Source: Prochlorococcus sp. AG-402-K14 (lineage in GTDB: Bacteria; Cyanobacteriota; Cyanobacteriia; PCC-6307; Cyanobiaceae). Taken from it: a stretch of DNA of 64,000 nucleotides. Positions within the stretch are counted from its first letter, which is position 1, and every line of letters begins with the position of its first letter. Location: NCBI GenBank assembly GCA_003216815.1, contig QCIG01000005.1:1-64000 (forward strand). The letters run 5' to 3'. Shown in pieces: positions 45,639-49,904 of this stretch. A program made the translations under genes and the position numbers. Below the pieces are notes generated by a model. That model ran no database searches, was not told the origin of the DNA, and saw only the letters and a list, made by a program, of their open reading frames with translations.

Positions 45639-46199
45639 TTACCATTTCAAATAACTGTCATCATCCCAATCATTTGATATCTTTCTAACTTCCTTATTAT
45701 AGTTTAAGTTGATTTCTTGATTATTGTATAAGTCATCTGATACATCAGAGTCATAAGATTCTTCTGTTATTTCATAATTTTGATATTTATTATTTTGAAC
45801 GACTTCATTTCGATTGTTTTTACCAATTACCCTAAAACTCGCATTAATTGTAGGTAATGGCTCATTTATATCTCTTTCAATTAAAATGTTATCAGATTGA
45901 ATTTGATATCCTTCATCTGAATATTCATTTGCCTTCTGTTCTTGATACTCCTTGTTATTTTTAAGTGAATTAGTTGGCTTCTTATTATATAAATTACCAA
46001 GATTAGTCGTAATAATATAAGAAAGTATAAAGCCAGAGGCAGTAGAAATAGATAGGTATGTTCCTAGAGCTAATGATGGAGTATCCCAAATAAGAACTCT
46101 TAATTTTGTATTTTCCTTTTGATTATTAAAACATAAAATTATAATTATTAGAACTGTAGATAATATAGGTAGTGATTTAATTAGTTTACTGATTTTCAT
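45639..46199 (-). CDS. hypothetical two-TM membrane protein
   Basis: ORF 186 aa. Confidence 0.6.
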   Translation of the reverse strand: MKISKLIKSLPILSTVLIIIILCFNNQKENTKLRVLIWDTPSLALGTYLSISTASGFILSYIITTNLGNLYNKKPTNSLKNNKEYQEQKANEYSDEGYQIQSDNILIERDINEPLPTINASFRVIGKNNRNEVVQNNKYQNYEITEESYDSDVSDDLYNNQEINLNYNKEVRKISNDWDDDSYLKW

Positions 46200-46804
46200 T
46201 TATTTGGACCATCCCATCTTTTTATATTATCTAAATTCTCACCAAGAGAATCTAAAAGTCTAACAACTATAAAATCGATGATGTCTTCGATGGTTTTAGG
46301 GTTTGTATACCATGCAGGTATTGGTGGAACAATTATTGCTCCAGCAGTAGCTATACGCTTGATATTTTCTATATGAATTAAATTAAATGGTGATTCTCTT
46401 GGTGATATAACTAATGGCCTGTTTTCCTTTAGATGAACATCAGCACATCTTTCAATTAGATCTAATGAGAAACCAGATGCTATCCGACCTAAGGTCCCCA
46501 TTGAGCATGGAACAATAATCATTCCTTTTGTTTTATGACTTCCACTTGCAATATTTGCTGAATGATCATTCCACCTGAAGCAATTTAATTCACCAGATTC
46601 AATTTTAAGTTTTCTTCTCCAAAAATTAGATTGAGCTTTTGGTTCAACCGGAATATTAATTTTGCGTTCACTTTTGGCTACTTCATAGGCACCTTTGCTG
46701 AGAATTAAATCAACAGTTTTATGATTTTCTAATAATAACTGAACAACTCTCTCTCCCAATTGCATGGCAGAGGCACCTGTAATTGCAATAACTATACTTT
46801 TCAT
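46196..46804 (-). CDS. ubiX: flavin prenyltransferase UbiX
   Basis: IAITGASAMQLGERVV; VPCSMGTLGRIASG; SPRESPFNLIHIEN. Confidence 0.94.
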   Translation of the reverse strand: MKSIVIAITGASAMQLGERVVQLLLENHKTVDLILSKGAYEVAKSERKINIPVEPKAQSNFWRRKLKIESGELNCFRWNDHSANIASGSHKTKGMIIVPCSMGTLGRIASGFSLDLIERCADVHLKENRPLVISPRESPFNLIHIENIKRIATAGAIIVPPIPAWYTNPKTIEDIIDFIVVRLLDSLGENLDNIKRWDGPNK

Positions 46805-49117
46805 TTAATTTTTAATATCAGACTTAATATTAGTTTCATTGTTATTGATTGAGTCAATTGAATTATTATCTTCTGGTTTCACAAGCTCTAAGTCTATTTG
46901 ATTTTTAAGTATGTCAACTTTAAGTACTCTTACATATACTTTTTGTGCAAGTTGATAAGTTTTCTTATTTTTACGTCCAACTAGTAGGTTTTGCCTTGAT
47001 CTATATTCATACCAATCATCACCCAGTGTACTGACATGCACTAAGCCTTCTGCAGTTAGATCTGAGATTTCAGCAAAAAATCCGTAACTTTGGACTCCAG
47101 TGATGACAGCCGGTAATTCTTTGCCGATAGTTTTTTGCGCTTCTCTACATTGTGCAATAGATATAATATTATTTCTAAACAACTTGGATTTTTTTCTAAT
47201 ATCATTTAAATGCTGAATCAATTTTATATTTGAATGTAAGTCAATTGTTTCTTTTATTTTAGAGGCAAATAATTCCCACTGAATTTTTTTCCAACTATCT
47301 TTTTTACCGAGATCTATAGTTTCTTTATTTCTACTGGAGCTCTTTTTTCTACCATCATTTAAAAGTGTAGTTAATATAAATTGATTAAATATATTCCAAT
47401 AATTTAATGATGGAATACACCATGGAGATTCTAAATTATTATTTTGCATAAGAAAATTATAATCATTATTTTCTTGATAGTGATCAATTTTAAAAAGTTT
47501 TAAATTTATTCCAGGGATTATGTGCTTAACTAATTTCTGAAAAATCTTTTTTTCTTTGCTGGAATCAAATAAACTTATTAATTCAGTTAATGTTACTGAA
47601 CCATCTATATTTAATGTTATCTCCTTATCTAATGCTAAGGATGATTTTATTAATTCATTTATAGATGTTGGGTCTATTTCTTCGTGTTCCTTATATATGA
47701 AGGGTAATTTAAAACCAATTAAATGTTTAGCCAAAATTTTGTTGGATAATCTAACATAAACATCTACAATTGACTGAGGGTCAATGCAATCAAATGTTTG
47801 AGACCAACCATGAAAATCACGGCTGGGGAAAGTATTTTGCAACTCACCTAGTCGTTGTAGGTTTGGTATATCTTCATCCAACTTAATTGTAGCATTATTG
47901 TTATTATTAAGTTGTTTAGCTGAATGGATAATATTATAAATAACTTCTAGGCTGTCTTTGATTGGTTTGATTGCAATTGGAATGGATTTTGATGTGGCTT
48001 TTCTATTATTAATAGCTTTAAGATGTTTCGAGGTGATAAGACTTACAGGTTTAATTTTGCTGAGAGTAAACTTCCAGTCAGTTATTTCTCCTTGGCTATT
48101 TATATCTATCATTAAACTAATTGCATCACATACCTCATTTATTTTAAATTCAGAGGATGACTTGAGTGATTCACTTAAAAATTCAAGCCAATTATTTCCT
48201 AAACATATAATCTCACCTTTATTTTTAAGAAATTGATCTAATTTACTACCTAAATTTATTCTTTCAGAAATTGTAGGAGAGTGAACCCATATTCTATTTC
48301 CTCCTTCGTAGGGTTGAGCAAATAAAGCCGGTAATGAAGGTGAATTTTGACAATCCCAACTTTTAAATAGCAATGAAGACTGAGATGTTAAGTCCTCTCT
48401 ACCTTTTGATGCAATTTTTTTAGGAGAAACTTTTGGAACATAATTACTTGTAGATATTTGATTTTTTGAAAGCAAAATTTCTATATCTCCATCAACACCT
48501 GCATTTAATGGAAGTTCCCTAATTATTGAGCCAGATGCATTTAATTGAGCAACAGGGTATTTAGTTATTTGTATTTCATAGATATGATCACTTTTGGGGA
48601 TTTCATTAAAGCTTTTAATATCTTTTTCTATTTCAATAATTGCAGGTATCCTATCGTCCAATGGATATGCTCTTAATTTCCCAGTGGATTTATCGGATTC
48701 AATTTTGGCCAACAAAACATCATTGTATCTATTTAAAACACATTTAATTGATCCTTCGGGGGCTCGTCGCCTTAATCCCTCCTTAGTTATCAATACAATT
48801 ACCGAATCACCATGCCAAGCGTGATTAAGATTAGCCTCTCGAATATAAATATCATCACCAAGATCTTCTCTAACAACAAAACAATAACCTTTACTGCTAC
48901 AGCGAACTCTTCCTTTTATAAAATCAGTATTTGTATTAATAGAAAGTCTCTCACTTTCATCATACTTAACTAAGCCAAGTTTTGTTAGAGCATTGATTGC
49001 TATGAGTAAATTTTCTCTATCTTGCTTTTTTGTAAGTTTTAATGATTTCTCAAGCTTAACTACTTCCAATCCATCCTCAATATCTAGATTTTCAAGTATC
49101 TGTGAAACTGTTGTCAT
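46805..49117 (-). CDS. RNase II/R-family (RNB + S1) protein, predicted catalytically inactive
   Basis: N-terminal CSD-like region (IKGRVRCSSKGYCFVVRED), RNB-like core (REDLT...RIWVHSPTISERINLGSKLDQFL), S1 domain (GKELPAVITGVQSYGFFAEISDLTAEGLVHVSTL); catalytic Asp cluster not recognisable. Confidence 0.85.
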   Translation of the reverse strand: MTTVSQILENLDIEDGLEVVKLEKSLKLTKKQDRENLLIAINALTKLGLVKYDESERLSINTNTDFIKGRVRCSSKGYCFVVREDLGDDIYIREANLNHAWHGDSVIVLITKEGLRRRAPEGSIKCVLNRYNDVLLAKIESDKSTGKLRAYPLDDRIPAIIEIEKDIKSFNEIPKSDHIYEIQITKYPVAQLNASGSIIRELPLNAGVDGDIEILLSKNQISTSNYVPKVSPKKIASKGREDLTSQSSLLFKSWDCQNSPSLPALFAQPYEGGNRIWVHSPTISERINLGSKLDQFLKNKGEIICLGNNWLEFLSESLKSSSEFKINEVCDAISLMIDINSQGEITDWKFTLSKIKPVSLITSKHLKAINNRKATSKSIPIAIKPIKDSLEVIYNIIHSAKQLNNNNNATIKLDEDIPNLQRLGELQNTFPSRDFHGWSQTFDCIDPQSIVDVYVRLSNKILAKHLIGFKLPFIYKEHEEIDPTSINELIKSSLALDKEITLNIDGSVTLTELISLFDSSKEKKIFQKLVKHIIPGINLKLFKIDHYQENNDYNFLMQNNNLESPWCIPSLNYWNIFNQFILTTLLNDGRKKSSSRNKETIDLGKKDSWKKIQWELFASKIKETIDLHSNIKLIQHLNDIRKKSKLFRNNIISIAQCREAQKTIGKELPAVITGVQSYGFFAEISDLTAEGLVHVSTLGDDWYEYRSRQNLLVGRKNKKTYQLAQKVYVRVLKVDILKNQIDLELVKPEDNNSIDSINNNETNIKSDIKN

Positions 49118-49204: not shown

Positions 49205-49498
49205 CTAGTTTTCACTAGCAATATCATTTTTGCTTTTTACTAGAAGGTTAATTCCTATAATTAAGAATACTATTCCAGAAAGCAGTTTGAGTAGGAAGGC
49301 GGGGATTAAGTTCGCAATAGAGCCGCCTGCCAATGATCCCAAAAGGGTAGCTAAAATGAGAGCTATTGATGAGCCAATAAATACAGCTAATGGTTTATTA
49401 GTTGTACTACTTAAAGTTATTGTGGTTAACTGCGTTTTGTCGCCCATTTCAGCAAGAAAAACAGTGACAAAGGTTGTGAGAAAAAGAGTAAGGAGCAT
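49205..49498 (-). CDS. TMEM165/GDT1 (UPF0016) family half-protein
   Basis: FLAEMGDKTQLTTITLS (ExGDKT). Confidence 0.92.
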   Translation of the reverse strand: MLLTLFLTTFVTVFLAEMGDKTQLTTITLSSTTNKPLAVFIGSSIALILATLLGSLAGGSIANLIPAFLLKLLSGIVFLIIGINLLVKSKNDIASEN

Positions 49499-49514: not shown

Positions 49515-49904
49515 TTAATCATGAATAAAGTCAATAAAACCTTGTGATACTAGGTATATTCCCAAACTTAACATAATTATTCCTGAAACCACTGTAAACC
49601 TCTGCCTTGGTAAATTATTTGCTATCCATTGCCCAATTAGAACACCAAGTAGGCTTGTTGATATTAACGCTAAAGCTGCACTAATAAAGATGATTAATGG
49701 TCTACCCGACTGTGCAGAAAGCATTAAGGTCGCAAGCTGCGTCTTGTCGCCTAGTTCGGCCAGGAAGATTGTACTAAATGTTGTAATTAATATATTTAAA
49801 AAAGTATTAGAATCATTTGAGTCACTAGCTTTAAGGTTGGAATTTGAATTAGGTTGACCCATTATATCCAGGAAAAAGATGCTAACTTGAGTCTTATGTT
49901 TCAA
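49515..49904 (-). CDS. TMEM165/GDT1 (UPF0016) family half-protein
   Basis: FLAELGDKTQLATLMLSA (ExGDKT). Confidence 0.92.
   Translation of the reverse strand: MKHKTQVSIFFLDIMGQPNSNSNLKASDSNDSNTFLNILITTFSTIFLAELGDKTQLATLMLSAQSGRPLIIFISAALALISTSLLGVLIGQWIANNLPRQRFTVVSGIIMLSLGIYLVSQGFIDFIHD

Follow-up and report, generated by a model that had tools for sequence, protein, structure and literature searches.

What can a protein do in RNA metabolism once it has the domains of an RNase II/R exoribonuclease and a catalytic centre that appears to be gone? The question is raised by the reading frame at 46805-49117 on the minus strand of the window, the whole 64,000-nucleotide stretch of Prochlorococcus sp. 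AG-402-K14 analyzed here, which begins with ATG and encodes 770 aa. The protein matches all four Pfam models of the bacterial architecture (OB_RNB/CSD1, CSD2, RNB, and S1). The minus-strand domain coordinates are 48743..48913 for CSD1/OB_RNB (aa 69-125, PF08206), 48401..48742 for CSD2 (aa 126-239), 47357..48400 for RNB (aa 240-587, PF00773, E 1.6e-29), and 46886..47128 for S1 (aa 664-744, PF00575, E 4.2e-09). A CSD-like N-terminus and an S1 domain had been recognized in a preliminary description, and the Pfam matches bear this out. The match to the CSD2 model is weak, with its best stretch at aa 86-133, and because it overlaps CSD1, CSD2 was placed by alignment and its boundaries are our own; in non-picocyanobacterial Zam, PF17876 matches at about aa 170-224. 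The single-sequence structure model of the window protein (pLDDT 31) was unusable.

Catalytic positions were read from an alignment with E. coli RNase II and R (taken from NC_000913). At the positions of D201, D207, D209, D210, and R500 of E. coli RNase II, the window protein has K252, P260, L262, P263, and L571 (KPLPL), so that none of the four acids of the Mg2+ quartet and no catalytic Arg is present; its R648 aligns with E542 of RNase II. The former acidic region lies at aa 253-264 (48326..48361, minus strand; SWDCQNSPSLPA) and the former SPIRRYxDxxxH motif at aa 566-579 (47381..47422, minus strand; WCIPSLNYWNIFNQ). The preliminary description of an RNase II/R homolog that had lost its catalytic centre, including the altered SPIRRYxDxxxH motif, agrees with this alignment, and the strings it cited, REDLTSQSSLLFKSWDCQNSPSLPALFA and WCIPSLNYWNIFNQ, are present in the reading frame. 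It erred in holding that the first Asp is kept: the Asp of SWDC is out of register with D201, and thus all four acids are gone. In sister genomes the place of this Asp is mostly taken by E and once by Q. The absence is not noise, since the same five positions read D(E/D)DDR in 67/67 cyanobacterial Rnb proteins (DEDDR in 58, DDDDR in 9), and the four acids occur together in 0/77 Zam proteins. Lacking all of the metal-binding acids as well as the catalytic Arg, the window protein should not degrade RNA, and its sequence fits the earlier label of pseudo-nuclease. Its scores also fall below the cut-offs of the NCBI models, at 171.8 bits against 597.85 for TIGR02063 (RNase R equivalog) and 137.1 bits against 368.6 for TIGR00358 (RNase superfamily). 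Zam proteins of other families exceed the superfamily cut-off even though the active site is absent, and can therefore be counted as exoribonucleases, which makes counts of RNA-decay enzymes misleading.

A relation to cyanobacterial Zam, suggested as a possibility in the preliminary description, is supported by the tree, by a pair of cysteines in CSD1, and by the order of zam and ubiX. In a FastTree phylogeny of 133 rows (RNB proteins of the window's genome, its genus, its family, and 24 other families of the class), a fast method in which the E. coli rows sit on long branches, Zam forms one clade (99) and Rnb another (100), and the window protein falls inside Zam. Its Cys73 and Cys79, within RVRCSSKGYCF, belong to columns conserved in 74/77 and 75/77 Zam proteins, respectively. 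Judged by its sequence, the gene is a picocyanobacterial zam ortholog descended from an RNase R-like exonuclease. It is homologous overall to bacterial RNase R and has its domains in the same order; among solved structures the best match is 8cdu, RNase R of B. subtilis on the 30S subunit (profile E 1.6e-106). RNase R is catalytic, whereas in the window protein all four acids and the Arg are missing. One RNB protein was excluded from the tree: a third RNB protein of 463 aa in a distant cyanobacterium (L052, G047:C1:266500-271500), neither Zam nor Rnb by pairwise score.

Thomas et al. (2022; PMC9145284) presented Zam as a unique clade of RNB proteins whose active site is degenerate. The window protein thus belongs to a known family, although the text of that paper does not name the window's lineage. 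According to the same authors, the canonical RNB site is absent from every Zam (PMC9145284). The Zam proteins of Synechocystis (sll1910) and Synechococcus PCC 7002 have in common with the window protein the CSD1-CSD2-RNB-S1 architecture, the RNase R-like affinity, the identical residue numbers of Cys73 and Cys79, and the lack of a canonical active site (PMC9145284). In PCC 7002, the CSD1 cysteines are redox-responsive and essential in vivo, and Cys mutants phenocopy the deletion; deletion of zam, reported for PCC 7002 and PCC 6803 only, altered pigments and led to acetazolamide tolerance and photosynthesis phenotypes (PMC9145284). PCC 7002 Zam, the only purified Zam so tested, was aggregation-prone and showed neither RNA binding nor nuclease activity (data not shown in that paper; PMC9145284). 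Anabaena Alr1240, classed as Zam in PMC9145284, is reported to bind RNase E and raise its activity (PMC9145284; PMC10989914), and also to degrade unstructured RNA (PMC10989914). The latter report contradicts the view that Zam is dead throughout; since some Zam proteins retain three acids, the discrepancy may be specific to certain lineages.

Decay of the active site is indeed graded across Zam, a new observation. Among 23 Zam proteins outside the window's family, three acids are kept in 4, two in 8, one in 7, and none in 4, and the catalytic Arg survives in 16/23. Within the family (n = 54) the Arg is found in none, and 40/54 have zero acids at the four positions; the SPxRRYxD motif is gone, and a conserved P-x-L-P motif stands in place of the acids, with Pro at D207 in 54/54, Leu at D209 in 53/54, and Pro at D210 in 49/54. 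That the replacement residues are conserved suggests that they took on a new role in the structure and did not simply drift. The Alr1240 report (PMC10989914) could be taken to mean that the RNB fold works with a different metal site and that residual or alternative catalysis persists, and the acids (up to three, in 4/23) and Arg (16/23) of other families' Zam are compatible with this. In the window protein, however, none of the four acids or the Arg is left, and P, L, and P replace three of the acids in 49-54 of the 54 family members, which makes such catalysis very unlikely here.

Loss of the catalytic residues is not accompanied by loss of the gene. Zam was found in 134/135 family genomes with completeness of 90% or higher and contamination of 5% or lower. 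In the genus, 15/17 genomes of this quality have it, and the other two are drafts in 30-40 contigs. Median pN/pS among 15 same-genus Zam proteins was 0.27 for the whole protein, 0.27 for RNB, 0.095 for CSD1, and 0.104 for S1, values that are rough because pS is about 0.58 and dS is near saturation. Across the family, conservation reaches at least 90% at 28/57 positions of CSD1, 42/83 of S1, and 43/348 of RNB. Strong constraint is thus concentrated in CSD1 and S1, and most of the conservation in the family alignment falls in the OB domains. In some same-genus drafts and most genomes of g36 (codes such as g1, g31, and g36 denote genus groups of the family), a stop lies inside the matched zam stretch, as would be expected of a decaying pseudogene. 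Yet the frame is open in the window and in every single-contig same-genus genome, selection is evident overall and strongest in CSD1 and S1, and the gene is near-universal in the family; pseudogene decay is exceedingly improbable. The g36 genomes (L083, L084, and others), the smallest, have Zam on a long branch and no ubiX match just downstream. No cyanophage carriage of Zam appeared in the organism tally, where weak RNase R-like matches occurred in phages of other hosts only.

RNA binding and a regulatory role, as first proposed for this protein, are plausible. The reading that we favor, with a probability of roughly 0.6, is that the window protein is a dead RNase R-like zam ortholog acting as a redox-sensitive adaptor for RNA and/or RNase E, the gene for which is present in the genome. 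An RNase R-like ancestor lost all metal-binding acids and the catalytic Arg, and with them presumably the capacity to degrade RNA, while the CSD1 and S1 surfaces and the CSD1 cysteine pair were retained. The cysteines would sense redox, as published for the PCC 7002 ortholog; the OB domains would bind RNA and/or RNase E, and in this organism Zam may thereby adjust RNA turnover in step with the redox state of photosynthesis. The lack of observed RNA binding by the aggregation-prone PCC 7002 Zam and the reported activity of Alr1240 on RNA both speak against this reading.

A related possibility is that, in the manner of yeast Ssd1, Zam has its RNA-binding surface relocated and, with no involvement of RNase E, controls the translation or decay of the particular mRNAs bound there. 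Ssd1 is in the same situation, as a dead member of the RNase II family with conserved CSDs and an RNA site on its outer surface (PMC8934651), evolution of this kind occurred repeatedly in fungi (PMC8097288), and it is CSD1 and S1 that are conserved in the window's Zam. No RNA binding was seen for PCC 7002 Zam, however, and we regard this account as unlikely, though deserving of attention. The likeness is one of working and not of origin: Ssd1 (7am1, PMC8934651) has constrained cold-shock domains but arose independently, from Dis3L2, and has a relocated RNA site and blocking insertions in CSD1 and S1. Descent of the window protein from Dis3L2 in the manner of Ssd1 was ruled out, as it groups with cyanobacterial Zam and its closest match among solved structures is a bacterial RNase R.

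Whether the genome holds an active RNB copy, a point raised in the preliminary description, is answered by its second RNB gene, which reads DEDDR. This gene, rnb, lies outside the window on the same contig, 17 kb from zam (C5:66326-67189; L148:5988-7271), between rpsR and a metG-like gene. It encodes 427 aa, with 38 residues ahead of the first catalytic Asp. Rnb is about 600-700 aa long in most of the family and 394-449 aa in 12 small-genome genera (g1, g26, g28, g33, g34, g36, g42, g45, g50, g57, g58, and g60; genomes of about 1.6-2.0 Mb), where 12-60 residues precede the first catalytic Asp, compared to about 285 elsewhere. The absence of about 240 N-terminal residues before the catalytic domain of Rnb in Prochlorococcus-like lineages, a label based on small genomes, two phycobiliprotein-family genes, and family context, is a new observation, and no mention of it was found in the literature searched. 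In the window's genome a gap of only about 23 bp separates the end of rpsR from rnb downstream, which leaves no room for the missing part. The short Rnb proteins of the 12 genera form one clade (99) with a single origin, and g31 represents a second, separate case. RNB proteins with minimal accessory domains occur elsewhere, as in Deinococcus radiodurans RNase II and Haloferax volcanii RNase R (PMC12320835).

The single origin of an Rnb with so little before its catalytic domain invites the idea that Zam serves as a trans-acting RNA-binding platform for the genome's own stripped-down RNase II. This is doubtful, given that an hhalign comparison detected no similarity between the lost Rnb N-terminus and the Zam CSDs, that Rnb became short in g31 as well, and that Zam is equally dead where Rnb is full-length. 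A fuller version, in which the Prochlorococcus RNB pair would divide its labour between an RNase II cut down almost to its catalytic domain and a Zam that recruits RNA or the degradosome in trans under redox control, its pocket rebuilt as Pro/Leu, is more doubtful still.

Directly downstream of zam is a gene for a flavin prenyltransferase of the UbiX family (46196..46804, minus strand; TIGR00421, 181.7 bits, above cut-off), and the zam-ubiX order is found at 14/14 loci of the genus, 35/39 other loci of the family, and 13/22 loci of other families. UbiX makes prenylated flavin for UbiD decarboxylases, and ubiX may be linked to plastoquinone synthesis and hence to redox. The widespread pairing of zam with ubiX, along with the shortened active RNase II, offers concrete leads on RNA turnover in very abundant phototrophs.

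Zam has a role in phycocyanin synthesis in PCC 7002, and a reduction of this synthesis is the best-known mutant phenotype. In the window's genome and seven other genus members there are two PF00502 genes, compared to 11-13 in four cyanobacteria with a full set. That Zam persists where the genome has just two phycobiliprotein-family genes is a new observation, and it makes phycocyanin synthesis unlikely as the core function of Zam.

Two further features adjoin the pair. A 186-aa ORF (45639-46199) overlaps ubiX by a few bases and has no match in Pfam; it is conserved beside ubiX in the genus, at only 36-51% identity. Directly upstream of zam are two consecutive half-size genes for GDT1 (PF01169) cation/proton antiporters (49205-49498 and 49515-49904), both of which recur beside zam in 14/14 same-genus loci.
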